From a virus, in the IMG/VR virus record IMGVR_UViG_3300025141_000291, positions 1-38,015 of that record: a stretch of 38,015 nt of DNA. The stretch is one strand, 5' to 3'. Made by a program: the position numbers and the translations under genes. Under the pieces are notes generated by a model that saw only the letters and a program-made list of their open reading frames with translations, was not told the origin of the DNA and did no database searches. Shown here one piece after another: positions 6,572-35,281 of the stretch (the first letter of the stretch is position 1; each line of letters starts with the position of its first letter).

Positions 6572-7783
6572 TTAGCTTATAGTCTCTAGAGAAATGGGAA
6601 AACCTCCTATCAGACCAGGAAGAGAAATTGGATCTTTAATAAATTCTTTAAGTAGATCGACTTCACATTTCTCAACATCTAAGACAAGTGCATCATGAAT
6701 TACAAACACGGGATTTGCATTAATCCCGCTTTCTCTAATTTTTTCAACAAGAGCTTTAAATCCAAGAAGCGCTGCATCAGTTGCAGTTGACTGAATGAAT
6801 CTATTAACTAAGACGTGCCTTGACGTGTCGTCAACATTCATTGCTCTTCCGTAGTGGCTTTTAATAAAGCCGTCTATCGATAGAGATCTATTTAGCTCAT
6901 TTTCGATGTGCTCTATTTTAAAATATCTTCGTATCTTTTTTAAAACATCTCGCGCCTCAGAGGCTTTGCTGATACCAACAATCTCAGAAAGCTTTCTTGA
7001 TGACATTCCATATAGAGATCCAATTGTAGCAATTTTTGCAATCTTTCTGCTGACACGTGAATCTAGGACATTTTTTCTAATATGCTCGTAAATGTCACTC
7101 GGGCTATCTTTACCAGATACTGAAAGTGCAACCCTTGGCTCAAGTGAGACAAAGTCAACTTGGACGATCGATCCATGCTTTCTTGTTGATCTAAGAAACT
7201 GTCTCCTGTCCTTTCTAAGGGTGAGGATTGCTGGGCCATTAGTAACTGTTAGACGGCCACTGCAAGATGCAACCTGGCTGTACGTTGGGCGTGAAAGAAA
7301 CCCGTCTCGCTCAGGAAGAAATGACGATAAAGATCCGTCTCTCTTTGTAGAGTCTGACAGGACGTTAGATACAGATTTGACATCAACAGAGCATCGATCT
7401 AGACCTTGTAGAAACTGACGTATTGTCACGAATTCATTTGTATAATAGGAATCATTGTAACTATCTAAAAGGTTCTGGATTTGGTAAAGAAGCTGCTCTA
7501 AATGAGTCTGGAATCGATCTCGACCTAGTGATAAGTGCCAGGGAATTCCGTCGGACCCATTCTCTCTTAAGAGCTTCCACATTGTAGTGTGAGATTCTGA
7601 AGGTGTGATTCTGATCTTTCTTCCCGTGGCTTGCAGTAGAGTGTCTATGCTTTTAGGATGTGATTCTGAAAATCCACACAGCCATGAGGTATCTGGTATG
7701 TCACTAACCCACCTAAACCCTTCTTCATCTTTGATAAGATGCAGATTTGATCCAATTAGCTTCTTGTGAATGCATATGCTCAT
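6572..7783 (-). CDS. Family A DNA polymerase, polymerase domain only
   Basis: This 403-residue protein has the ordered palm/fingers motifs of Pol I. An SGRL segment (about 175-178) matches the conserved TGRL. Motif A is VDFVSLEPRV, with catalytic D210 and steric-gate E215. The O helix is R246-x3-K250-x3-I254-x3-Y258-G. N327-x3-Q331 follows, and motif C is VIHDAL with D364. Two positions are unusual: Ile at the place of E. coli Phe762, and HDA instead of HDE in motif C. The N-terminal 170 residues are too short and show no DxE-type exonuclease motifs, so no proofreading or 5' nuclease domain is present. It probably replaces T4 gp43 as replicase or is a repair polymerase. No ribosome site is evident before the ATG. 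Confidence 0.88.
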   Translation of the reverse strand: MSICIHKKLIGSNLHLIKDEEGFRWVSDIPDTSWLCGFSESHPKSIDTLLQATGRKIRITPSESHTTMWKLLRENGSDGIPWHLSLGRDRFQTHLEQLLYQIQNLLDSYNDSYYTNEFVTIRQFLQGLDRCSVDVKSVSNVLSDSTKRDGSLSSFLPERDGFLSRPTYSQVASCSGRLTVTNGPAILTLRKDRRQFLRSTRKHGSIVQVDFVSLEPRVALSVSGKDSPSDIYEHIRKNVLDSRVSRKIAKIATIGSLYGMSSRKLSEIVGISKASEARDVLKKIRRYFKIEHIENELNRSLSIDGFIKSHYGRAMNVDDTSRHVLVNRFIQSTATDAALLGFKALVEKIRESGINANPVFVIHDALVLDVEKCEVDLLKEFIKDPISLPGLIGGFPISLETIS

Positions 7784-20498: not shown

Positions 20499-23400
20499 CT
20501 AGACTTCCGCACCAGCATTTGTGACGACAAAGTCAAGAGCAATAAACTCAGCTGTTCTAGTCGGCTGAACAAAGATCTTTCCTCTGATGGTATTATTCTC
20601 TATATCTGCTTGTGTGGTTGTGGTTGTGTCAATAATGACCTTGTAGCGATCAAGTCCACTCTTTTCCTGAATCTTTTGCAGGATTGGATTGACCAAGCTT
20701 GTAAATTTCTCTAAAGTTGACTCTCTATTTGGTTCGAAGAGAAGCGTGTTTGCTATTCCTCTAACCTTTCTTCTAATATCAATTAGAAGTCTTCTAACAT
20801 TAACTCTATCCAGAGCAGAAGCTGCTGAAAGAAGCGTCTTCTGTCCCCAGACTACGACACCAGTTCCCGGGAAGTCAGTAATTGGGTTAATATCTGCATC
20901 ATAAAGATTGTCAAGGTTTGCCCTATTAAGATCAACAGATGCCTGTACAACTGATGATAGAGCACCTCTTGAGAATCCTGCAGGTGCGAACCATGGATGT
21001 CCAAGTGCGTCATTAAGTGAAAATGCACCAAGAACAGCCACAGAAGGTGGACATCTAACATTTGTTCTTGTTACTGGATCCTGAATTACTACATCAGGGA
21101 AGTATGCAGCTGCAAATGATGAGTCTAGTGCGCGATTCTTAAATGCTGTTACTGTGTCACTAACATTGATATTTTGAACAGAGGATGTAACAACGTTGTT
21201 TAATACGTCTCTCTCTTCAATATCCATAATGTACATAGAGTCAAATCTATTTTCGACTGCATCTACCGCATAGTCTGTAATTGACTCGTCTCTCATTCCT
21301 GGAACAGCTAAGAGCTTAATCTCAACATCAGATCTATTTGCCATGATGTCGATAGCCTTTCTAAACGAAGCCACTGTGGGGCCTTCTTTTCCTCCTTGAT
21401 TTGTGGAGTCGTCCATCTCTCTCTTTGCAGCATTATCTCTTAGCTTTGCCTTGTCTTCATTGAATATATTTGTTCCATTAAATCCTCCTTGTAGGAAGAA
21501 TGTAAACTTAGCATATCTTCTGTTTCCAACTAAGCCAAGGTCATCAACTGAAAATGCTCTTGTCTTAAGAGTTCTATCTATTGATATTCCTCCCGCTCTA
21601 ACATATGATGCGCTGACCCATTCTTTTGGATCAGCATTTCCATCAGATCCAGTTCTAATCTTAATCCTCTCAAGAGAGAAGATGTTATTATTAAATCTAT
21701 CTGAATCTAAGATTCCGTTCGCAACTGTATCTGCTGTTCCAGCATTATTTCCAACAGAAAACTTCTGATTATCAAGTGAGAAATCTGGAAAATACTTTGC
21801 ATAATTTGCAAGAGACATGTCAAATAGATCTGGCTTGTTCGGTTGAGTGGGATCTGTCTTTCTAGATGACTGAATACCCCAGAATAGCTGTGCTGATGTT
21901 CTCTTCTTATTTCCTGTTCCAAAGTTTAAGTGCCCTCTGAATGGAATTGGCGGCTCAACAGTTAGCTTCATAGATCCAGTGAGATCATCCTCGAAGTTTG
22001 CAGCGCCGTGTCCCAGAGTTGCAATAACATCTGACCCTGATGTTACAAGGTGATTAGGTCCCCTAAATCCCATGGGAAGTGCATTATCAGGAACCTCTCC
22101 AGCCTTTTGTGAAGCTCCGATCTTAAGTCTAATATATTTAGACTGATTTGGGAAGTCTCCATCTACGACTAGCTTTTGTGAATCTGATGATTGGTCGAAA
22201 TCAAAGTATATCTTTTGATCACCTATGACTCTTGCAAAATACCTTTCAGACTCAGGATCCATCGATAGACCTCTAAATGACTCAAGTACAACCTTCTCTT
22301 CATCTGTGTCGAAGAAGTCTCTAACAACTAGGTCAAACTTTCCAAACCTATTAACATCAGAATTTGACTTAGCAAGGTTTTCAATTGAAACCTTATAGCT
22401 AGTGCTAACTGTGTCACCATCAGAAAGTGCCTCTACTCTAAATAGCTCGTATGGCCTTCCACCAAAGTTTTGAGATATAACATACGGTGACTTAGCGGTT
22501 GTAAACCTATCTTCAAATGATCTATATTCTGGAATTGTTGAGCTTCCACCAGCCTGTCCAACAGCACTTATCGATCCAGTTGTAATGAATATGCAGTCAT
22601 TATAATCAGCGTGTGATGTCGCTCCTTCACCAGAGATTCGCTCTGTTGCACCTGGTGTTAATACTCCAGATCCAGTTGGGACTGCCATTGATGAGTGTAT
22701 GTCGTAATGAGAGTATAGAAGGTGACCTGCCTGCTCTATTAGTGTAGGATCTGTATTAAAGACTCTTGAAATATAGGATGGAGAATTAACATCAAAAGAT
22801 GCTGATATAATTCTGCTGTAAGCACCTGTTCCCTTGAGGCCATTTAAGAAGAGAACGAAATCTTGATTACTTACTGTCATCGATCCAGTTAACCCACCTC
22901 GCAGTGAAGAGTGGCCTAGCTGTCCAATCGCATCCGAAGCCGGTCCGCTTCCTGGAGCTGTTACCTGGTAGTTTCCAGATAGTAGCGGCATAACACCAGA
23001 TGCTGAAAATAGAACACCTCTGAGGATTGGAATGGCGCGATTGTCATCAACACCTCCGGTAAATCCTGAGATTGTATAAATATTATCAGCTGTTACAACT
23101 GCGCGCGTAATCGTTTTATTACCTACGTATCCGCCCAATGCCTGTGTTAAAGTAAGAGTATCGTTTGCTGCATCTGCTGTTGACACTGCTATTGTGATTG
23201 CGCCGTTGTGCCCATTTGCACTTTCAATCGCAGCTTTAATTTGAGCTGCTACTTCACCAGCTGTTGTCTTACCGTTAATCTGTATTCTAACATTACCTGA
23301 TTCATCCACAGTACCAGTTGCATCGTCGTCGTCGTCGTCAAAAATATATGTTTTTGTCGTACTATGGCCGCTGGTTATAGTTAGTGTGCCCGCATCATAC

Positions 23401-23930
23401 TGTGAAACTGTTGCTGATACTGCCACTATTGTGGCTGTGGCAGCTGTTTGAGAAGTTTCCTGTATTCCCGCATCACTAAAGTATGTGCTACCTGCTGACT
23501 CTGACATGTAGCAGCCTATGAAGTGAACATTTCCTCTTTCTCCGCTTTCATTTGCGTATGGGTTTGCACCTATGATTCCATTTGCCTGTACCTGTTCTGC
23601 ACCTACAACAAATCCTGCGTTTGTCACCTTACCAGAAGAAGTGTTTCTCTTCTTTCCGTCTCCGACACCGAGAACTCTTACGTACGTAAGCGCTTGTGAA
23701 TTTTTTAACCACTCACTAACAGCAAGTGGTCCAAACTTTTCACCATCTGTCTCGCCAAATGTAGCTACGAACTCTGAAAAATTAGCAACTGTTACGGGTA
23801 CAAATGCCGGACCAAGGTCGGCAGTTCCAATAACACCTGCAGGAACACCCACAGGGCCCGTAACACTTGGTGTTGAAAGATCAATTTCTCTTGTGCTAAC
23901 ACCTGCACTTTTGAATGTCAACTCAGCCAT
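20499..23930 (-). CDS. Tail sheath protein, paralogue B, with inserted Ig-like module
   Basis: This 1143-residue protein has the sheath N-terminus (TFKSAGVSTREIDLS, then PAGVIGTADLGPAFVPVTVANF) and a typical sheath C-terminus: HPWFAPAGFSRGAL, VVWGQKTLLSAASALDRVNVRR, and PTRTAEFIALDFVVTN. Between residues about 161 and 296 sits a module with IFDDDDDDATGTVD, VRIQINGKTTA and NGHNGAITI that is absent from the adjacent paralogue. The two genes are related along most of their length. T4 gp18 has 659 residues, so both sheaths are large. The ATG at 23930 has GGAG 9 bases upstream; a TTG at 23945 is less likely because it lies within the ribosome site. Two sheath types may build one contractile sheath together. 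Confidence 0.93.
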   Translation of the reverse strand: MAELTFKSAGVSTREIDLSTPSVTGPVGVPAGVIGTADLGPAFVPVTVANFSEFVATFGETDGEKFGPLAVSEWLKNSQALTYVRVLGVGDGKKRNTSSGKVTNAGFVVGAEQVQANGIIGANPYANESGERGNVHFIGCYMSESAGSTYFSDAGIQETSQTAATATIVAVSATVSQYDAGTLTITSGHSTTKTYIFDDDDDDATGTVDESGNVRIQINGKTTAGEVAAQIKAAIESANGHNGAITIAVSTADAANDTLTLTQALGGYVGNKTITRAVVTADNIYTISGFTGGVDDNRAIPILRGVLFSASGVMPLLSGNYQVTAPGSGPASDAIGQLGHSSLRGGLTGSMTVSNQDFVLFLNGLKGTGAYSRIISASFDVNSPSYISRVFNTDPTLIEQAGHLLYSHYDIHSSMAVPTGSGVLTPGATERISGEGATSHADYNDCIFITTGSISAVGQAGGSSTIPEYRSFEDRFTTAKSPYVISQNFGGRPYELFRVEALSDGDTVSTSYKVSIENLAKSNSDVNRFGKFDLVVRDFFDTDEEKVVLESFRGLSMDPESERYFARVIGDQKIYFDFDQSSDSQKLVVDGDFPNQSKYIRLKIGASQKAGEVPDNALPMGFRGPNHLVTSGSDVIATLGHGAANFEDDLTGSMKLTVEPPIPFRGHLNFGTGNKKRTSAQLFWGIQSSRKTDPTQPNKPDLFDMSLANYAKYFPDFSLDNQKFSVGNNAGTADTVANGILDSDRFNNNIFSLERIKIRTGSDGNADPKEWVSASYVRAGGISIDRTLKTRAFSVDDLGLVGNRRYAKFTFFLQGGFNGTNIFNEDKAKLRDNAAKREMDDSTNQGGKEGPTVASFRKAIDIMANRSDVEIKLLAVPGMRDESITDYAVDAVENRFDSMYIMDIEERDVLNNVVTSSVQNINVSDTVTAFKNRALDSSFAAAYFPDVVIQDPVTRTNVRCPPSVAVLGAFSLNDALGHPWFAPAGFSRGALSSVVQASVDLNRANLDNLYDADINPITDFPGTGVVVWGQKTLLSAASALDRVNVRRLLIDIRRKVRGIANTLLFEPNRESTLEKFTSLVNPILQKIQEKSGLDRYKVIIDTTTTTQADIENNTIRGKIFVQPTRTAEFIALDFVVTNAGAEV
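23043..23450 (-). other. Domain insertion within sheath paralogue B
   Basis: Residues about 161-296 are a self-contained Ser/Thr/Ala-rich module with a D6 run, encoded by five GAC and one GAT codons at 23322-23339, and a TITSGHSTTKTYIFDD-like strand pair. The two sheath paralogues align to its left and right, so an insertion in one copy is the simplest reading. The module type is common in structural proteins of aquatic phages (by memory of such sequences), suggesting exchange between phage genes. Edges are approximate. Confidence 0.65.
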
Positions 23931-23968
23931 TCTAGTCTTCTCCAAAAACTCTTATCATTAAATATAAA

Positions 23969-26900
23969 TTACTCAAAGCTTACACCTGAATTAGTGACGA
24001 TAAAATCAACAGCAATAAATTCTACTGCCCTTGTTGGAACAAGGACTATTCTTCCATTTAGCCTATTTGACTCAATATCTTCAACTGTGTTATTGCTTTC
24101 ATCCATAATAACCCTAAACTTATCTATACCCTGTTGATTTTGAACTGTAGAAAGTAAAGGAGTAACCTGAGATATGAATTTTGCCCTAGTCGTAGGTGTA
24201 TTCTGCTCAAATACAAGCTTCTTGGCAACATCTGAGACTAGCCTCTTGACCTCAAGTAACATTCTTCTAACATTTACTCTATCTAGTGCCGATCTGGCCT
24301 GCTGTAGTGTTTTTTGTCCAAATATAACATATCCTGCCTGTGGAAATGATGCTATTGGATTAATTCTTGAATCATAAAGATCATCTCTGTCAGCGCTATT
24401 TAGCCTTGTGGCTGCATTAGAGACATTTGATAGTGCAGCCCTATTAAATCCTGCAGGTGCGAACCACGGATATGCTACTGAATCATTAAAGCCAAGTGCA
24501 CTTAGCGCTGCTATTGATGCAGGAACTCTTACAGGTGAACCTGTTCTATCATCTGTGATGCTAACATCTGGGAAGTATGTAGCTGCATAGTTGTTATCTA
24601 TTGCCCTTCCATCAAAAGTTTCCTTTGTCTTTGATACGCTTGGCTTAAGATCATCACTGTCAAATATTCTCACACTAGAATCTGTGTAGCTTGGAATATC
24701 CATAAGGTATATTGCCTGGCTATAGTCTCTTGTCTTATCTGCAGCATGATCTGTAACGAAGCTATCTCTTATTCCAGGAATTGACAAGATATTGATTCTT
24801 GTAATCATTGGATCAGTCATTATATCTATTGCAGATTTATAGGATGCTACAGTTGCATTATACCTGCCGGCACCAGATGTTGAAGAAGAGTCTAGCCCAA
24901 TATCTAGATCACCACCTGCTGCGGGTGCTGTTATAGATGCCTTTCCTCTTGCGTCACCTGAGCTAGCTCTGTCATTCATTCTAGACATGTCTAGGTCTAG
25001 AATATTAGTTCCATCAAACCCGCCGTGCATAATGTTTGTGAACTTCATGTACTCACTAAATCTATTAAAATATACAGATGACGTTAGTGTTAGAAGTGAA
25101 GCAAAAGTAAGCCTGTGATCAGTAGCTGTTTTCTCTCTAATTGTGTAGTTCTTTCCTGGGCTGATTCTTCCATTTCTAATGTAAGCCGCTTCTAACATGT
25201 GCTCTTTTGCTGTTCCAGTTAAATTTGAATCTACAGTTGTAATTAGTGCCCTCTTTGTACCCGCAGAGTCAAGAGTCGTGCTTAGAGCAACCTTTCCAAG
25301 TGTAAACCTATTATTAGAGAATGCATCTGCTCCAGAACCTGTAACAAGCGCGTCGAGCTTTTTGATTCCGAGAAGCTTAGTATATGTTCTAACAAGTTCA
25401 TTTGTCTCAGAAGATGCATTTGCATTTAAAACTGCATTTCCTAGTGAGCCTGTTCTAGGGCACCTTGTTGTCTTTACACCCCAGTAATACTTGCTATTAA
25501 CTCTCTCATTTGTTCCAGGGTATCCTGCATATCCAGACTTCGCTGCAGTTCCCTGCGTGACCTTGAATGTCATAGGTACTGGTGGAACAATAGATCCTGA
25601 AAGATGGCCATCTTCTCCGTATGCAGTTGTACTTCCTGATACAATCCCTAGCCTGATTCCGCCAGATCCGCCATTAAGAACATCGTCTTTAATTCTACTA
25701 GGAACTTCAGAAATTATTGTAGTATCAGCGAGAAGGTTATTTGTCTTTAGTACAGGAAGACCTCTAAATCCAAAAGGCAATGCACTAGCTGGAACATTTC
25801 CATTCTTAAGATCATCACTAAATACTATCCTTACCCTGCTTGAAACATTGGGATAGTCGCCGCTTATTACATATCTTCTTTCATCTGGATCAAGTGTGTC
25901 AAAGTTATACTTAACACTTAGATCGCCGATCTTTCTTCCGACAAAGTTCTCATCATTTGGATCTAGTGTGCAGAGAGGATATTGCTCAAGTATTTGAGGT
26001 GCTGTATCTGAATCATCAAATGCCCTTACTTGAACTGTGAATGATCCATACTCATTCTTTGGATCTGTTGACTTTCTAAGATTTGCTATTGAAACCTTAT
26101 ACATGTCGCATGTATTTTTACCATCTGCAAGGGTCTCGAAGTAGAACAGATCAAAGACTGTAGTTCCAAAGTCCTGAGATGTAAAGAATGTAGTTTTTGA
26201 TGGACTGTATCTTGTATCAAATCTTCCGTACATGTCTCTGTATGTAAGAGATGTATCTCCTGATCCATCAGATGTCTGTGACGTTCCAGACATGACGCCA
26301 ACATAGCTTGCAGCTGATGCAACCTCATCCTCAACAGCAAAATCTGCGTAAAGAAGGTGTTGTTCTGCCTGAAATCTATTCGGGTCAGTATTCAGTATCT
26401 TTGCAATATAGTCATCATTTGTAGGATTTAGAGAAGCAGTCATAATTCTAATTCCTGATATTCCATCATCACTTGCAAATGTAGATCCAACAGAGCTAGA
26501 GATGACAATTTTAAACTTCTTATATGTGTCAGATGAATTTTCGTCTGTACCCATTCTTGCAATGTCTTCTAGAGACGCTGAGGTTGGGTATGTTCCATCA
26601 TAGTTTAGTAGCTGGACTCTGCTTCCTGTTGATGAAAATATCATAGCTCTAACGAGGAATACATCTCCTCCTGCTGCTACATTAAAGCTATCATTATCAG
26701 TAAATACTGGATAGCCAAATGTCTCCCATGAATGGACTTCATGCTTTGCACCTATAAACTGAACAGCACCCTTATAGCCTTGCTTTGAACCCTGTGCTTC
26801 TGTTGCAACTGATCCTTTAATTCTAAACCCTGCATTCTTAACAGTTCCTAGATTTGTGGTATTGTGAATATCGGTACTATTTTCATTTGCGCCCGCACCG

Positions 26901-27157
26901 AGGACTCTCATGAAAGTAACAGCTGTTCTATTCTTAAGGAACTCATTTACAGCATATGGTCCAAATTTTGTTGAATCTAAGTCACCAAATCTTTCCTTAA
27001 AGTCAGCAAATGATCCAACAGTTACTGGAATAAATGCTGGACCAAACTCTGATGTCCCAATGACTCCTGCTGGAATTCCTGCAACTTCTTGAACTCTTCC
27101 TGAGAGGTCGATCTCTCTTTCAAAAAATCCTGGCGATCTGAAGGTCTGCTCGGCCAT
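23969..27157 (-). CDS. Tail sheath protein, paralogue A
   Basis: This 1062-residue sheath homologue is placed first in transcription. The N-terminus has FFEREIDLSGRVQ and PAGVIGTSEFGPAFIPVTVGSF; the C-terminus has YPWFAPAGFNRAAL, VIFGQKTLQQARSALDRVNVRRML, and PTRAVEFIAVDFIVTN. These last segments fit the sheath C-terminal domain that contacts the tube and the next ring. The middle differs from paralogue B and lacks its extra module. Length is about 1.6 times T4 gp18. AGAGGAG lies 9 bases before the ATG, and the stop is 38 bases before the paralogue B start. Both genes are intact, so one may have a specialised place such as the tail end, or they may alternate; this is inference. Confidence 0.93.
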   Translation of the reverse strand: MAEQTFRSPGFFEREIDLSGRVQEVAGIPAGVIGTSEFGPAFIPVTVGSFADFKERFGDLDSTKFGPYAVNEFLKNRTAVTFMRVLGAGANENSTDIHNTTNLGTVKNAGFRIKGSVATEAQGSKQGYKGAVQFIGAKHEVHSWETFGYPVFTDNDSFNVAAGGDVFLVRAMIFSSTGSRVQLLNYDGTYPTSASLEDIARMGTDENSSDTYKKFKIVISSSVGSTFASDDGISGIRIMTASLNPTNDDYIAKILNTDPNRFQAEQHLLYADFAVEDEVASAASYVGVMSGTSQTSDGSGDTSLTYRDMYGRFDTRYSPSKTTFFTSQDFGTTVFDLFYFETLADGKNTCDMYKVSIANLRKSTDPKNEYGSFTVQVRAFDDSDTAPQILEQYPLCTLDPNDENFVGRKIGDLSVKYNFDTLDPDERRYVISGDYPNVSSRVRIVFSDDLKNGNVPASALPFGFRGLPVLKTNNLLADTTIISEVPSRIKDDVLNGGSGGIRLGIVSGSTTAYGEDGHLSGSIVPPVPMTFKVTQGTAAKSGYAGYPGTNERVNSKYYWGVKTTRCPRTGSLGNAVLNANASSETNELVRTYTKLLGIKKLDALVTGSGADAFSNNRFTLGKVALSTTLDSAGTKRALITTVDSNLTGTAKEHMLEAAYIRNGRISPGKNYTIREKTATDHRLTFASLLTLTSSVYFNRFSEYMKFTNIMHGGFDGTNILDLDMSRMNDRASSGDARGKASITAPAAGGDLDIGLDSSSTSGAGRYNATVASYKSAIDIMTDPMITRINILSIPGIRDSFVTDHAADKTRDYSQAIYLMDIPSYTDSSVRIFDSDDLKPSVSKTKETFDGRAIDNNYAATYFPDVSITDDRTGSPVRVPASIAALSALGFNDSVAYPWFAPAGFNRAALSNVSNAATRLNSADRDDLYDSRINPIASFPQAGYVIFGQKTLQQARSALDRVNVRRMLLEVKRLVSDVAKKLVFEQNTPTTRAKFISQVTPLLSTVQNQQGIDKFRVIMDESNNTVEDIESNRLNGRIVLVPTRAVEFIAVDFIVTNSGVSFE

Positions 27158-29110: not shown

Positions 29111-30295
29111 TCACCCCATAAAGATGCTAAAGCCGTTAGGCATTGGTGTAAATTTTAATTGCTTTTGTATAAACTCTGCTCGACTTGAAGCTGTCTCCAT
29201 TATCTTATCGTATGTAAGCGTCTCAAGCATCTCCTTTAGCTGCGTAACAAGTGCATCTCTATCGGCCCTTCCCTGTGTAATTAAGTCAGCACCGTTTAAT
29301 GAAACCTCTGCACCAGGAACTGGTATACTTCCAAACTTTGACCTGACAAGACCAAGTTGCTCTCTGGACAGTGCGAGTGCATACTGTCTTATCCACTGCC
29401 TTCCTATGCTGTTAATCTTATTATAGTTGAGATTTCCAAATGGAATATTGGAAAGATTTGACACCCCATCTATTGTCTCATCATGATATGATGGATTAAG
29501 AGGATCAGGGTAATACATTACGCGAAGATATAGCTTTTTTGAATTTGTTGAGGTTGGTGTTGGAAATATTCTTATATTTGTTCCAATAATCTTATATGAG
29601 TAATTTGACCTTCTAACCCTGTTTGAGAGATCTAGCTGTCCAGCTCTAAGAATATCTTCAAAGACAGGAAGTACATAGAATATTGTCTCAGGTGTAAATG
29701 ACTCAAAACTAAACTCATTGTTAAGATAGTTTATAGCAGAAGTTGTGTCAAAAAATCTATATGCACCCTCTGGACCAAAATGAAATACCTCACTAATCTT
29801 AAGCTTTGTACGTGGGCTTGCATTTGTTCCTGATGTAAATATCACGTCACCGTCTGCATTTTTTAGTTCAGAGTATATGTCGTAATCCTGCCTATTGTTT
29901 TCAAGATCTATGGATCCCGATATCATATTATATGATCCACCGACACCTGCCTCCATGGCATATGGTTCAGCAAATCTTATAAGGTACTCAAGATTCTCTC
30001 TTGGGTACTTTCCTTCTGATCCTGACATATGTCCGTCTGACCCTGTTGTTGGCATTCCTAAGAATTGAACCAATTGAGACTTTGCTTGGTATTGATTAAG
30101 AATTGACCCATATTCGAGACAAGACTCCTCTAGGTTTGCCCATATCTGCTTTTTTGTCAGCTCAACAGACAGGATATCGTCGCCCATCTTTCTCTTAACA
30201 AATGTGACTATATTGTCAGCCTCGCCCTGAAAGTCAGTATCAGAGTCGAAGAACCCAAAGGGTGTAGGATTTGTTGTATCTGAAAAAGTCGCCAT
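29111..30295 (-). CDS. Neck protein / head-tail adaptor (T4 gp13-like)
   Basis: This protein has 394 residues (T4 gp13 has 309). An N-terminal helix LTKKQIWANLEESCLEYGSI (about 45-64) is followed by strand-rich middle parts and a long C-terminal helical region with WIRQYALALSREQLGLVRSKFG, then SIPVPGAEVSLNGADLITQG and a DALVTQLKEMLETLTYDKIME helix. That W-R-Y-A-x-A-RE-LG-KF and PGAEVSLNG order is typical of head-tail adaptors in T4-like phages. The frame extends upstream to a TTG at 30340, but the ATG at 30295 has GGAG 5 bases upstream and is preferred. The ribosome site lies in an 8-10-bp stem, so translation may be controlled. It begins the neck gene set after the FtsZ-like gene. Confidence 0.75.
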   Translation of the reverse strand: MATFSDTTNPTPFGFFDSDTDFQGEADNIVTFVKRKMGDDILSVELTKKQIWANLEESCLEYGSILNQYQAKSQLVQFLGMPTTGSDGHMSGSEGKYPRENLEYLIRFAEPYAMEAGVGGSYNMISGSIDLENNRQDYDIYSELKNADGDVIFTSGTNASPRTKLKISEVFHFGPEGAYRFFDTTSAINYLNNEFSFESFTPETIFYVLPVFEDILRAGQLDLSNRVRRSNYSYKIIGTNIRIFPTPTSTNSKKLYLRVMYYPDPLNPSYHDETIDGVSNLSNIPFGNLNYNKINSIGRQWIRQYALALSREQLGLVRSKFGSIPVPGAEVSLNGADLITQGRADRDALVTQLKEMLETLTYDKIMETASSRAEFIQKQLKFTPMPNGFSIFMG

Positions 30296-30300
30296 TGATA

Positions 30301-30347
30301 CTCCAGTTGATTCAATAACTATCCATAAGTATGGACTCAAACTGGAG
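30301..30347 (-). promoter_or_regulatory. Stem that hides the neck-gene ribosome binding site
   Basis: The ribosome site of the gp13-like gene lies in AACTGGAG, which pairs with CTCCAGTT 31 bases upstream on the RNA (8 bp, 10 with a U bulge). Inside is a second hairpin, TCCATA-CU-TATGGA. The SD is thus closed in a two-stem structure, which should limit translation unless opened. Confidence 0.5.
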
Positions 30348-30433: not shown

Positions 30434-31666
30434 TTACTCAATTCCGCCCAGAGCAGAAATGGCCACAAGGCCTGGAAGGCCCTCTCTAACGTATACACCT
30501 GAGAATAAAGCGTCAGTTCTCCCGCCGACATAAGAGATTGCTGCCTCAAGCTGTGTGCTAATTGATGGATCAGAAGCCATCGCCTCAGTAACAACGAGAA
30601 GAAGAACTCCTGTCTTTATCTTGCCGCTTGGAGAGGGACAGGGAGACTTTGTCATGCAATTCTGATAAATCATAGACCCTAGATTTAAATCGCTTGGATC
30701 TTTAACAACAGTAGTTCCTAGAAATAGTCTTCCACTTGTTGATAGACATGCTTCAAGATCTTTTGAATCAAATGTCTGAATCGGGGATGACTCAGATGAC
30801 AACTTAAGCACCTGGGCGATCAATTTGGCAAAGTTTTTATTTGCTGTAGGGTAGAGGCCTAACATTCCTACCTTGCCTCTTAGAAGCTGAAGCTGTCTCT
30901 CATTGTCTATGACAACGTGTGAAGATCCTGAGACATCAGACAGAAGAGCCTCATAGTTCTTCTTAATTGTTGGGTTTAGGAGCTCCTGTGCTGTCGGTGC
31001 TGTCACGACATAGACCACATTTCCTGAAGCTGAAACAGACTTAAGATATCTCTGAAGCGCTGAATCTAGTGAGTGGCAAGAGCTTCCGGTTCCGCCGCCG
31101 CCGCCTGCGAGTACGAATAGCCAGTCAACCCTTCCGACCTTTGATCTAAGGTGATCCTCAACCAGCGCACTATTGTTGGATAGAATTTGACGGCCTAGCT
31201 CAACATTCTTTCCTACTCCGTCTGCACCTGGAATAAGAAGAAAGTGATCAGCGCCTAGACCTGTTGGCTGATCCTTGTCTGTTGTGTTTACGACAAGAGT
31301 TTGAGTAAATCCTATGTCGATAAAAGCCTTGGCCATCTTTCCGCCGCCGCCTCCAACACCTATAAACCCTACTGAAAGAGATGAGGGTGCTGAATTTTCA
31401 GGAAGCAGTGTTCCACTTTCTCCCTCTACTGCATCATCGTAGTCGGCTACAAAATCAAAATCGTCATTAGTACTAGTCATATCTCTCTTAGTCTCCCTTT
31501 TGGGTGAGCTCTTCTCTCGCTCTTGTTTGTTATTGTTGTCTAGTGTTAGGTTATTTTCCACCACATCTTTGTCGGCGTAAAATTTAGAGACTGTTTCTTT
31601 CTTCTTGCGCTTTTTTTGCTTGTCTTCCCTGAAGTTTTTCTTTAGATTGCTCAAGCCAGAAGCCAT
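30434..31666 (-). CDS. FtsZ/tubulin-like GTPase with charged N-terminal extension
   Basis: This 410-residue protein has the ordered GTPase loops of the FtsZ/tubulin family: GVGGGGGKM (103-111), VVNTTDKD (125-132), GADGVGKN (147-154) and the signature GGGGGTGSS (188-196). A later FDSKDLE puts D300 and D303 at the place of the catalytic FtsZ DFAD pair, so polymer-dependent GTP hydrolysis is plausible. The C-terminal domain has TGVLLLVVTEAM and LVAISALGGIE, like the closing FtsZ strands. Residues 1-95 are Lys/Arg/Glu-rich and unlike FtsZ, and no C-terminal FtsA-binding tail is seen. GAGG precedes the ATG. It stands between an abundant structural gene and neck genes, not with replication genes. 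Relation to PhuZ, TubZ or FtsZ cannot be settled by eye. Confidence 0.88.
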   Translation of the reverse strand: MASGLSNLKKNFREDKQKKRKKKETVSKFYADKDVVENNLTLDNNNKQEREKSSPKRETKRDMTSTNDDFDFVADYDDAVEGESGTLLPENSAPSSLSVGFIGVGGGGGKMAKAFIDIGFTQTLVVNTTDKDQPTGLGADHFLLIPGADGVGKNVELGRQILSNNSALVEDHLRSKVGRVDWLFVLAGGGGGTGSSCHSLDSALQRYLKSVSASGNVVYVVTAPTAQELLNPTIKKNYEALLSDVSGSSHVVIDNERQLQLLRGKVGMLGLYPTANKNFAKLIAQVLKLSSESSPIQTFDSKDLEACLSTSGRLFLGTTVVKDPSDLNLGSMIYQNCMTKSPCPSPSGKIKTGVLLLVVTEAMASDPSISTQLEAAISYVGGRTDALFSGVYVREGLPGLVAISALGGIE

Positions 31667-31704
31667 GAATTACCTCTATAGATAATTATTCCCCATACAA
31701 GAAT

Positions 31705-31734
31705 AAAAAAAGACACCCTATAGCAGGGCGTCTT
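31705..31734 (-). terminator. Intrinsic terminator after the 170-residue protein
   Basis: A 10-bp stem (AAGACGCCCT / AGGGTGTCTT, one G-U pair) with a 5-base loop is followed on the RNA by seven U. It lies 23 bases after the stop of the 170-residue gene and ends that transcript before the FtsZ-like gene. Confidence 0.9.
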
Positions 31735-31756
31735 TATAGATTGTGTAAGATGCGTT

Positions 31757-32269
31757 CTATTGGAAACTAACGTACTTAATAATCCATGCCATTGTACCAG
31801 CAGTTGTTACTGAATGATCTGTTAACGTGGTATTAAGATAAATTGTTCTTGCTGAAGTTGTGTATGAAGCGTCTGCGCCGAGGTCTGTGTGATCTGTTGT
31901 TTCACGAACCATTGTAAGTCTAACTAGACCGCCTGCTAATAAGTCTGTTCCATCACCACCAGCATCAATGATGTCGTCAGCGTGAGTTGCAACGATCTGG
32001 GCACCGGAGCTTGATGTTCCGACCTCATACCCTAGATCAGCACTGGCTGCTGTAACCGGTCCTGTTAGGCAGAGCAGATCAATTCCCATAATAAAGGTAT
32101 TTGCAGGCTGTGCCCACTCGACGATTGAGTCTGAGTTCTGAACAAATCCAGTTGTGTTCTTGACAACTGCAACTTTGACAACTGAGTTGCTGTCATCTAG
32201 CGTGAGAGGCATTGTGCTACCAGCCTCCTGGACTAGACCTCTACCTCCATCAATTTTAATACTTGGCAT
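31757..32269 (-). CDS. Small, probably abundant virion protein (decoration-like)
   Basis: I recognise no named family for this 170-residue protein. It is Thr/Ser/Ala/Gly/Asp-rich, with alternating strands and few Lys or Cys, which fits a beta-rich virion surface protein. It forms a single-gene unit: a structured leader upstream, a strong AAGGAG about 6 bases before the ATG, and a strong terminator after it. The same kind of terminator closes the major capsid gene. The place just beyond the capsid gene, with only a sulfotransferase between, suggests a capsid decoration protein, although a fibre or whisker part is possible. The N-terminus (PSIKIDGGRGL) and the closing strand (MAWIIKYVSF) look complete. 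Confidence 0.72.
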   Translation of the reverse strand: MPSIKIDGGRGLVQEAGSTMPLTLDDSNSVVKVAVVKNTTGFVQNSDSIVEWAQPANTFIMGIDLLCLTGPVTAASADLGYEVGTSSSGAQIVATHADDIIDAGGDGTDLLAGGLVRLTMVRETTDHTDLGADASYTTSARTIYLNTTLTDHSVTTAGTMAWIIKYVSFQ

Positions 32270-32380: not shown

Positions 32381-33259
32381 TTAATCAAAAATATATCCAA
32401 ACTTTTCTTCCCACATTGAAAGCTTATCAGCTATATGAGAAATGGTCCACTCGTTAAAATAATTCTGGTATGGCATTTTTATCTTTCTCTGACTGCTTTT
32501 TAACCTAGGGAGTGTTGAAGTAGGTATGTTGATATCTTTGCAAAACTTATCATAGTCTGGTTGAAGATTCTCGTATCTAAGAATATAGTCATAATCTTCT
32601 TGATAGTATTTTTTATTTATATCTACAAACCAGTCAAGAACATTCCTATTCTTTTCAAGTCCAAATGGCCCTCTAAAGTCTCCGCGTAGCTGGCAAAATA
32701 TCTCGAGCTTCTGGCGTAGTGTTTCTGCACTATCTAGCAGTGTTGGTGCTGCTTCTGGATGACTTGAAGGAGTAAAACCTAGATCACCATCACCTTTGTG
32801 TGCGACGCCATTGGAATCAATGTATCCGCTTTGTGAAGGATAAAAAGACCACCAGAAAAATGAGACAATCATATCCCAAGGATTTCTCACTATGGTTACT
32901 TTTTTATATTCACTTCCAATAGACATTAGATCTAAAACCTGCTCAGGTAGCGCATGCATGTGAAATTTTGGCTCTAAGATCTCTACTCTCAATCCTGATT
33001 TAATCATTTCAGGCGTGACTTTGTGAATATTTCCACTTTTTTTCATTATCTCTATTGCAACATCACCCTTGTGTGTATGTCTCACTATATTATTTCTAGT
33101 TGGATATTCATAATCACTTGATGAAATCTCATCTATGTGGTTTGTACCCGTTAAAATATCATCATCGCTACAGTGTCTACTTAATGCAGCTTCAACACTA
33201 GACCCTGCAACCTTCATTGGCTTAAAGAATATAAACTTATTCTTGTGTGAGATAATCAT
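32381..33259 (-). CDS. Sulfotransferase-family protein
   Basis: This 292-residue protein has the two PAPS-site segments of sulfotransferases: KPMKVAGSSVE (residues 13-23), the 5'-phosphosulfate loop, and VRNPWDMIVS (124-133), the 3'-phosphate RNP-x-D-x3-S motif. FHMHALPEQV (99-108) lies where the family has its histidine-rich strand. Such enzymes transfer sulfate from PAPS to sugars, lipids or proteins; the target here is unknown, with host surface or virion glycans as options. It lies between the capsid terminator and the decoration-like gene and is AT-rich, consistent with an added single gene. The ATG at 33259 has no ribosome site. TATAAATT lies 14 bases upstream and could be a phage late-type promoter for a nearly leaderless RNA. 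Confidence 0.85.
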   Translation of the reverse strand: MIISHKNKFIFFKPMKVAGSSVEAALSRHCSDDDILTGTNHIDEISSSDYEYPTRNNIVRHTHKGDVAIEIMKKSGNIHKVTPEMIKSGLRVEILEPKFHMHALPEQVLDLMSIGSEYKKVTIVRNPWDMIVSFFWWSFYPSQSGYIDSNGVAHKGDGDLGFTPSSHPEAAPTLLDSAETLRQKLEIFCQLRGDFRGPFGLEKNRNVLDWFVDINKKYYQEDYDYILRYENLQPDYDKFCKDINIPTSTLPRLKSSQRKIKMPYQNYFNEWTISHIADKLSMWEEKFGYIFD

Positions 33260-33297
33260 TCTAAATAGTATCAATTTATATCAATCAGTTAACAGAT

Positions 33298-33349: not shown

Positions 33350-35281
33350 TTAGATAACGTCCATATCCATACATGTTACTGTACCGTAGAAGTCAGCACG
33401 AACCATCTTCTTGCCGTATCGGGTCATCACGCCCTTACGGGGTGTGAAGTCTTCCGGCTGGAAGATAGTAGGAGTGACGATCAGCGGTACGTAAGGTGCG
33501 TATACGTATCCTGTCTCAAGGTAGCTTCCGCCCTTGTAACCAACGAGGACCTTGTTCCGTGGGAAGTATGGATCCTTGTAGACTGTGAAGCGGTTACTTA
33601 GAGAACCGATCTGTGCAGCACCCAGTGAGAATGGAGCACCGACCTGTCCGTCGCCGTCGAGCTTAAGTGCTGGCTTATAGAGCACTGATGCTTCGAAGAT
33701 TGTAGCAACATCTGGTGAGGTTACGATGAAGTTAGCTGAACCACGAAGTGTCTTTCTGTGGATCTCATTAGCAACATCGATGATTGTCTCAGTCAATGTC
33801 TCGTACCACTCACGAACTGTACCAGTAAACTGGGGTCCGGACGAGAGGCTTGAAGCCTTATCTTGCTCTGCACCTGATCTCTTGTTAACAAACTTACCAG
33901 GCATACGTGACCAGTAGAAGTTAGCACCCTGTGCTTCAACGAGTAGATCATTTAGGATCTCTCTATCGATCTCAAGTGCAACTTGCTCTGATAGGATCTG
34001 AGTAAGCTCGACCTCAGCGTCAAGGCTGTGGTAGGCGTTCAAGTCCTGAGCGAGCTCTGGTGACCAGCGAGCACGGAGCTTACGGGTTACCGCTGTAACA
34101 GCGATTGACTCGATCTTGATGTCGATCTCAGGGATGATCGGTGATGGTGAAGATGTATTAAAGTTCGACTCAAACGAAGGAATCGTTAGTGCAGAACCAT
34201 CTCCGCTATCAACATGAAGCGTAGGTGATATAACAAATGACGCTGTAATGTGGTGACCGGTTGCATGCTGTGTGGCATTAACACCTGAAACAACTGTTAG
34301 TAGAACACCATTCGATGTATTTCTATTAGCGAAAGGATCAGATGAGAAGATACCTGTTGCTGTATCGTATGTACCGATCTGATTTAGACGTCTAATATTC
34401 TTGATATTGCTTCCGCCCTGAATTGAATCTGGTAGGTTCTTATAGTTGAATGTAGTTGCATCAGCATCTGAAACAGTCTGACCACTGAATAGTCCAACTT
34501 CTTTTGCCTGTGTAAGGTCAACGCTGGCTGGGAATGAACTCAGATTCCATAGAATGAATGAGAATCTTCCTGTGCCGCACTGGCCGGGATCTTCTTCAAT
34601 TAGCTTTGTGATCTGTGGGTCAAACTGTAGTAGCTTACCGTCTGTACCTGTTGCAACACAAAGTGTATCCTGTGTAACGACCGATGCTGAATTACCATAT
34701 GCACCAGATGCAGCAGTTGTCAAAGTGGATGATGATGTGTGGACCTTGGAATATCCTGATCCAACAAGATCATACTGACCTCCGCGACCGAGTGATCCTG
34801 AGCGGATACCCTTTCCTGCAGGTGAGTTATAGATTGATTGACCAACAGCATATGTCTGAGCATCAACAGTTCCTGCAGCGCCAGATGCGTTGTTAGTATC
34901 ACCACCACGACGTGAACCGTAGGTGTAATCCAGATAGAAAAGCAGTCCTGATGGAAGGCTCATTGGCTGAATTGAAACTAGCTCATTGGCTACAAGTCCA
35001 CCGAAAACTCGACGAACGATTGGGAATGCGATATTGGTGAAGCCCTGAAGATCTCCAGAAGCTGTACCGGCACCGGCACCCGTTCCGACTGAGTTGGCTT
35101 CTCTAAGAAGCTGTGCAGCCTGATTTTCCAGAAGGCTTGCCATGTTCTCGCGATGCTGACCGTCAAGACCTCTGAGAAGTCCGGTACGTGACCACTTCTC
35201 AACAAGTCTCTTGTTCTGAGCACCGAGATGTCTTTGGCGAATTCCCTCTGTTAACTGATTTAACGTAAAGGTTTTACTCAT
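33350..35281 (-). CDS. Major capsid protein, T4 gp23-like
   Basis: This 643-residue protein is somewhat longer than T4 gp23 (521). The N-terminal segment is a proregion: KWSRTGLLRGL, then SLLENQAAQLLREANSV. The LRE/A site after E61 fits the gp21-type cleavage rule (I/L-x-E before a small residue), close to the T4 site after residue 65. The mature N-terminus would begin ANSVGTG. After it come GFTNIAFPIVRRVFGGLVANELVSIQPMSLPSG, the hallmark gp23 start of the HK97-fold part, and later DAEVELTQILSEQVALEIDREI. The C-terminus has APYVPLIVTPTIFQPEDFTPRKGVMTRYGKKMVR, again gp23-like. TAGGAG precedes the ATG, and a strong terminator follows. Codon use is more G/C-rich than in neighbours, as expected for a highly expressed gene. 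Confidence 0.94.
   Translation of the reverse strand: MSKTFTLNQLTEGIRQRHLGAQNKRLVEKWSRTGLLRGLDGQHRENMASLLENQAAQLLREANSVGTGAGAGTASGDLQGFTNIAFPIVRRVFGGLVANELVSIQPMSLPSGLLFYLDYTYGSRRGGDTNNASGAAGTVDAQTYAVGQSIYNSPAGKGIRSGSLGRGGQYDLVGSGYSKVHTSSSTLTTAASGAYGNSASVVTQDTLCVATGTDGKLLQFDPQITKLIEEDPGQCGTGRFSFILWNLSSFPASVDLTQAKEVGLFSGQTVSDADATTFNYKNLPDSIQGGSNIKNIRRLNQIGTYDTATGIFSSDPFANRNTSNGVLLTVVSGVNATQHATGHHITASFVISPTLHVDSGDGSALTIPSFESNFNTSSPSPIIPEIDIKIESIAVTAVTRKLRARWSPELAQDLNAYHSLDAEVELTQILSEQVALEIDREILNDLLVEAQGANFYWSRMPGKFVNKRSGAEQDKASSLSSGPQFTGTVREWYETLTETIIDVANEIHRKTLRGSANFIVTSPDVATIFEASVLYKPALKLDGDGQVGAPFSLGAAQIGSLSNRFTVYKDPYFPRNKVLVGYKGGSYLETGYVYAPYVPLIVTPTIFQPEDFTPRKGVMTRYGKKMVRADFYGTVTCMDMDVI

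Follow-up and report, generated by a model that had tools for sequence, protein, structure and literature searches.

A tubulin/FtsZ-superfamily GTPase gene among the virion genes of a T4-type virus

We analysed a 38,015-nucleotide stretch of viral DNA (IMG/VR record IMGVR_UViG_3300025141_000291, positions 1 to 38,015; hereafter the window), in which an open reading frame (ORF) at 30434-31666 on the minus strand had been read, from the letters alone, as an FtsZ/tubulin-like guanosine triphosphatase (GTPase). Profile searches and a predicted structure confirmed that this ORF encodes a complete two-domain GTPase of the tubulin/FtsZ superfamily. The long form of the protein begins at an ATG and comprises 410 residues, and its parts follow one another along the minus strand: a basic N-terminal extension (residues 1-62, 31481-31666, beginning MASGLSNLKK), an acidic linker with a conserved DFDFVxxYDD motif (residues 63-95, 31382-31480) and the tubulin/FtsZ core (residues 96-410, 30437-31381), the last recognised from the AlphaFold2 model, selection and conservation. 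The sequence-only reading had listed an ordered set of tubulin-family GTP loops, and all of them were located in that order and with the right spacing, namely the T1 loop GVGGGGGKM (residues 103-111, 31334-31360), GADGVGKN (residues 147-154 of the 410-residue protein), the T4 loop or tubulin signature GGGGGTGSS (residues 188-196, 31079-31105) and the T7 catalytic loop FDSKD (residues 299-303, 30758-30772). The charged tail described there is likewise real, with an isoelectric point of 9.9 for residues 1-62 and of 4.1 for residues 63-96.

At the sequence level, the resemblance is well above chance: the 410-residue protein matched Pfam Tubulin (E 2.5e-6, 28.4 bits, slightly below the curated 33) and NCBIfam ftsZ (TIGR00065; E 8e-10, 38.5 bits, short of the equivalog cut-off of 295.2). 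The best PDB matches obtained with phmmer were FtsZ chains (E about 1e-7), to which residues 102-320 aligned in register, and FDSKD was placed onto the FtsZ T7 loop by both the HMMER and the hhalign alignments. An AlphaFold2 model of the core built from 68 homologues reached a predicted local distance difference test score (pLDDT) of 92.3 and a predicted template-modelling score of 0.88; with 10 sequences the pLDDT was only 54. This model contains the two-domain tubulin/FtsZ fold joined by helix H7. Its top PDB matches in Foldseek were FtsZ, CetZ and TubZ (E about 1e-20), and VIA-align, with a match that spanned almost the whole model (model residues 30-348), gave Z scores of 32.2 for a CetZ2 GTPgS protofilament, 32.1 for Bacillus TubZ and 28.8 for S. 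aureus FtsZ. The best match in a viral structure library was an uncultured Caudovirales phage protein auto-named 'FtsZ cell division GTPase' (TMq 0.81, 20% identity). The FtsZ/tubulin identity and the intact catalytic loop are thus supported. The sequence-only reading had named a missing FtsZ/tubulin core, or loops out of register, as grounds for giving up this identity; we found the core present and the loops in register.

The GTPase site and the protofilament-end surfaces are conserved

Both T7 aspartates, D300 and D303 (D238 and D241 in core numbering), are invariant in 68/68 homologues. Across the same alignment, mean column entropy was 0.12 in T1, 0.09 in T4, 0.38 in T7, 0.63 in T3 and 0.60 in the H10-S9 loop, and reached 1.6-1.8 bits in helices H3, H4 and H8, so that the protofilament-end surfaces are among the least variable segments of the core. 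In phiKZ TubZ, T3 and the H10-S9 loop rearrange to make the filament interface (PMC3678025). The core is also under strong constraint at the codon level, with a ratio of nonsynonymous to synonymous substitution rates (dN/dS) of 0.019 among five homologues that are ~90% identical. This pattern suits assembly-coupled GTP hydrolysis, which it suggests rather than proves. Because catalytic conservation is complete, an active enzyme is to be expected more than a decoy, and we consider it quite probable that the protein is an active polymerising GTPase.

Relation to FtsZ, CetZ, TubZ and PhuZ

Profile comparisons ranked the putative FtsZ-like protein gp138 of Bacillus phage G first (Prob 97.5, E 6e-12) and E. 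coli FtsZ next (96.2, 3e-9). gp138 is the closest annotated phage protein, and its hhalign alignment covers the GTPase domain through T7, including IIDNEK and FDKNDL; it comes, however, from another phage group and starts at the core, without the long N-terminal tail. With FtsZ, which was top in both PDB phmmer and Foldseek, the family shares the GTPase domain and the T7 loop in register, but it has an N-terminal tail instead of the C-terminal linker and peptide, and the T7 asparagine is replaced. Archaeal CetZ gave the best structural Z (32.2), and M. thermophila CetZ (3zid) aligned over both domains (E 7.6e-10), although identity is about 20% and CetZ has no phage context. TubZ of Bacillus plasmids and of Clostridium phage c-st resembles the protein in fold (Z 28-32), and profile matches were obtained to the c-st and Bacillus proteins. 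Its C-terminal H11 extension is nevertheless absent here, and no TubR/centromere neighbourhood was seen beside the gene, in a search confined to its surroundings.

PhuZ (phiKZ gp39, 201phi2-1 gp59) is a phage-encoded tubulin of the same superfamily, also from large genomes, and its positioning role in lytic infection offers the best analogy (PMC7950403, PMC9067925). Its fold match is weaker, however (TMq 0.54 for Noxifer PhuZ), it has a C-terminal helix H11 and an acidic knuckle (PMC3678025), both of which the new family lacks, and the PhuZ phages belong to another family than these T4-type phages. PhuZ had been named as a yardstick in the sequence-only reading; hhalign of the family against phiKZ PhuZ detected no sequence relation (Prob 0.3, E 0.23). 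PhuZ was also missing among the PDB sequence matches listed, an absence that says nothing about the fold. From the profile ranking and the viral structure matches, the family sits with the FtsZ-like phage proteins and not with PhuZ. phiKZ gp54 (chimallin) was unmatched in 20 records, in a search that had no positive control and covered records that may be fragments.

An N-terminal tail, no C-terminal extension and two possible starts

Translation of the window gene stops at the last core strand, so that the FtsZ C-terminal linker and conserved peptide are missing, and the aligned homologues terminate no more than a few residues from that strand. The C-terminal helix H11 of PhuZ and TubZ and the acidic knuckle of PhuZ are absent from both the model and the alignment.

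At the other end, the basic extension varies between homologues yet is coding (dN/dS 0.32); the acidic linker has a dN/dS of 0.115. Homologues L011, L012 and L087 start directly at the acidic part, and Met63 of the window protein (31478-31480, minus strand), which is preceded by GGGAG at about 31493-31497, corresponds to the native start of these short homologues and is the predicted start of a short form. A Shine-Dalgarno sequence stands before an internal ATG at the short-start position in 27 of 34 tailed homologues, where the frequency at ATGs within the core would predict 13 (p about 1e-6, an approximate value because independent ATGs were assumed although the homologues share ancestry). 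In L075, the tail is encoded by an ORF of its own, which overlaps the core ORF by ATGA. For most long homologues, two isoforms are accordingly predicted from the two starts, of which possibly only one is used.

Separate small K/P-rich proteins that begin MPSS and resemble the tubulin tail are encoded at L075:2949-3350 and L042:7667-7984. A prohead-protease site, (L/I)xE, in the conserved LLPEN segment ahead of the core was considered and rejected as a general feature because homologues carry LLPDN and LAAN.

Distribution of the family and variability of the capsid-adaptor slot

A pattern search of IMG/VR returned 14 close relatives, and a search with the family alignment, confirmed by tblastn, found the family in at least 359 stretches, a count that includes near-duplicate contigs; 80 of the 359 were kept, and a second scan added more distant relatives. 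Exactly one tubulin copy was present in each of 20 long records (86-293 kb; 20/20), 18 of which also encode a T4-type gp23. None of the isolates in INPHARED carries the family, the sole tblastn match there being gp138 of Bacillus phage G, at 24.9% identity. Among isolates, gp23 is nearest to that of a Flavobacterium phage, and the contigs of bacterial metagenome-assembled genomes that carry the family were Flavobacteriales in 3/4 cases and Halobacteriovorax in one. Bacteroidota seldom use Shine-Dalgarno sites. A Flavobacteriales host was not adopted, since binned phage contigs are weak evidence and these phages do use such sites.

The window virus is T4-type, with capsid (gp23), adaptor, sheath and tube genes present in order. 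On one side of the tubulin gene, all on the minus strand, lie the genes for a 170-residue protein (31757-32269), for a sulfotransferase-like protein in the cargo slot (32381-33274) and for the T4-type major capsid protein gp23 (33350-35281; Pfam Gp23, E 2e-75); on the other side lies that for a gp13-like head-tail adaptor/head completion protein (29111-30340, minus strand; phrog_211, E 1.8e-9). The gp23 and adaptor matches bear out the earlier placement of the gene among virion genes of a T4-type phage. Its expected neck-side neighbour was also found, in the form of the adaptor, but the 170-residue protein matched no family and is decoration-like by position only.

Among 62 non-redundant homologues, 18 lie between gp23 and the gp13-like adaptor, and they come from several clades including a deep one. 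In the second main arrangement, the tubulin gene is located tens of kb from gp23, directly downstream of a transfer-messenger RNA (tmRNA) gene and upstream of PhoH. The complete gp23-gp13 slot was available in 37 relatives, with tubulin in 9/37; the slots without it (28/37) contain varied small genes, sulfotransferases or nothing. Two isolated relatives, Flavobacterium phage immuto and Microcystis phage Mel-JY01, have PhoH in this slot instead of tubulin. Together with the INPHARED search, this bears out, for isolated phages, the statement in the sequence-only reading that no T4-type core phage is known to have such an arrangement. Because the slot is a variable cargo position, its neighbours do not define function. 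This variability and the distant locations also make unlikely a role in head-tail joining, which had been suggested from gene order: the slot holds tubulin in 9/37 relatives and PhoH in the isolates, and the tubulin gene is often far from gp23.

The sulfotransferase-like gene recurs in the capsid-adaptor slot of relatives, at times after tubulin (L026, L028). The tmRNA genes, with tags such as ANDNVEFNYALAA, stand immediately upstream of tubulin in many relatives (L068:8832-9216, L073:1217-1578, L077:9519-9918, L044:9533-9877, L071:9393-9755 and L081:9447-9880, among others), giving a recurrent order of tmRNA, tubulin and PhoH; in G007, the tmRNA is distant from the tubulin gene. At L070:9953-10273, a tubulin gene of another subtype, cut off after the T1 loop, lies directly upstream of an intact one, which we read as a sign that one allele has replaced another in this cargo slot.

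In a literature search that covered mostly papers available without subscription, we found nothing that described the family, its tail architecture, its tmRNA/PhoH linkage or any tubulin from the T4-type group. The phage tubulins PhuZ and c-st TubZ are already known, and single FtsZ-like phage proteins have been annotated. For jumbo phages, a comparative study (PMC7824862) mentions 'two distinct representatives' of FtsZ/tubulin.

A promoter-like motif upstream of the tubulin gene

The window tubulin gene is preceded by a strong terminator-like hairpin of 12 pairs with a T tail (31709-31735, minus strand), by the promoter-like motif ATAATTA (31683-31689, minus strand), which is common to structural genes, and by a Shine-Dalgarno sequence. 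The hairpin suggests that the gene has its own transcription unit. In the regions that precede genes of these phages, no other word is as enriched as the corresponding consensus, ATANTTAT (ATANTTA(T)), at 14-16 fold. It is more frequent in the structural block (pooled Cochran-Mantel-Haenszel odds ratio 4.2, p 5e-4; taken singly, only G007 reaches significance), and in the slot, PhoH and groEL-side contexts it was found upstream of tubulin in 21/35 cases, as against 3.7 expected. The T4 late promoter TATAAATA did not occur upstream of any gene (0 copies, against 2.4 expected) and was not near the tubulin gene in the window. Across the window and its relatives, ATANTTAT is phage-wide and takes the place of TATAAATA. 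This distribution makes late or middle-late expression likely for the window's lineage. The earlier suggestion that the protein may act late thus receives moderate support, from the motif that precedes tubulin both in the slot and in two further contexts.

A possible filament-forming role and its alternatives

We modestly favour the view, drawn by analogy, that the protein forms a GTP-driven filament that is made alongside the virions and positions DNA or capsids, in a PhuZ-like role but in a separate lineage. PhuZ filaments centre phage DNA and carry capsids (PMC7950403, PMC9067925). Polymerisation, expression timing, the use of both starts, the cargo and the positioning role are what we infer here, as follows. 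Loops T1-T6 of each subunit would bind GTP, and the subunits would associate head to tail, with the T7 loop (DSKD) of one subunit completing the GTPase site of its neighbour. The filament would be produced during virion gene expression and would act as a cytomotive scaffold by which replicated DNA or capsids are placed within a large infected cell, as PhuZ does, the setting being T4-type phages without a known phage nucleus. Because the C-terminal helix or tail of PhuZ, TubZ and FtsZ is absent, the N-terminal tail probably contacts the cargo or an adaptor, and it may occur in a long basic or a short acidic form via the two start codons.

Several observations weigh against such a filament. The asparagine of the FtsZ T7 loop (NxDxxD) is not kept, being replaced by T, S, A or V, and the positioning role is borrowed from PhuZ, with which the family shares no detectable sequence relation. 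The gene is found in no isolate, and the family is accessory: close relatives whose gp13 is 66-78% identical have no tubulin in the slot, and 12 longer records without a slot tubulin gave no match elsewhere, although all of these may be fragments. Moreover, the deep 'other' tubulin group shows no upstream enrichment of the promoter motif (5/24, p 0.19), and the motif is not late-only, since in G007 it occurs in 19/63 upstream regions outside the structural block.

The protein might instead be a virion-assembly factor, scaffold-like or packaged, that works on proheads or in head completion and binds capsid or DNA through its basic tail, with no need for dynamic filaments. Such a factor would fit the charged tail, the promoter motif common to structural genes and the 18/62 homologues between gp23 and the gp13-like adaptor, deep clade included. 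We nevertheless regard it as improbable, since many relatives carry tubulin at a long distance from gp23, the slot takes variable cargo (28/37 complete relatives hold no tubulin there), and a plain assembly factor would not require a near-invariant GTPase site and filament-end surfaces. The catalytic-site constraint (dN/dS 0.019) also exceeds the need of a decoy, which bears on a host-division effector that would co-polymerise with or poison host FtsZ, so that division is blocked and the cell enlarged for a long infection. FtsZ is indeed the closest cellular family by sequence, and phages are known to target FtsZ with unrelated proteins such as lambda Kil and T7 Gp0.4; an identity of about 20% and the lack of the FtsZ C-terminal peptide nevertheless leave this effector a similarly small chance. 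The proposal in the sequence-only reading that the protein blocks host FtsZ gained no positive evidence: the identity is low, and full catalytic conservation suggests an active enzyme rather than a decoy.

We judge a TubZ-like partition filament, which would segregate phage DNA maintained in a carrier or plasmid-like state, to be very improbable. Its namesake ranks with the best fold matches (TubZ, Z 32.1), and the phage TubZ of c-st has such a role (PMC7950403), but no conserved adjacent TubR-like small DNA-binding gene was noticed in the relatives, and near the gene only chance two-copy repeats and no centromere-like repeat array were found. The C-terminal helix of TubZ is also absent, and the relatives carry T4-type virion genes. 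Returning to the positioning filament, a more elaborate form of it would make the family a third and hitherto undescribed phage-tubulin lineage, widespread in uncultivated T4-type phages without a phage nucleus, that builds a late cytoskeleton from two co-assembling isoforms, one basic-tailed and one acidic-tailed, with the N-terminal tail as a cargo handle replacing the C-terminal tail that known tubulin-like filaments of bacteria and phages have; we hold this combination to be doubtful.

Large T4-type viruses of bacteria, known only from environmental DNA, thus carry an intact tubulin/FtsZ-like protein of a lineage apart from the known phage tubulins. Dynamic filaments that transport phage DNA and capsids during lytic infection have so far been described for nucleus-forming phages, and the family suggests that phages without a 'nucleus' may also form filaments inside the infected cell. 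If this is true, phage cytoskeletons arose or spread more than once, the question is raised of whether ordinary cytoplasmic replication of large phages needs spatial organisation, and the conserved N-terminal tail with its possible two-isoform design would be a new coupling of a tubulin filament to cargo. Were the third-lineage form to hold, capsid or DNA trafficking would exist well beyond the nucleus-forming phages. Being single and small, such a protein is readily testable in a heterologous cell.

Further features of the window and related genomes

Two adjacent and very long tail-sheath paralogues of 1148 and 1062 residues, both matching phrog_23, are encoded in the window at 20499-23945 and 23969-27157. 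A 403-residue ORF at 6572-7783 covers only part of the DNA polymerase profiles, and a split polymerase is possible. Two tandem gp23 major capsid genes are present in one genome at each of G001:C1:176269-180120 and G004:C1:139350-142938.
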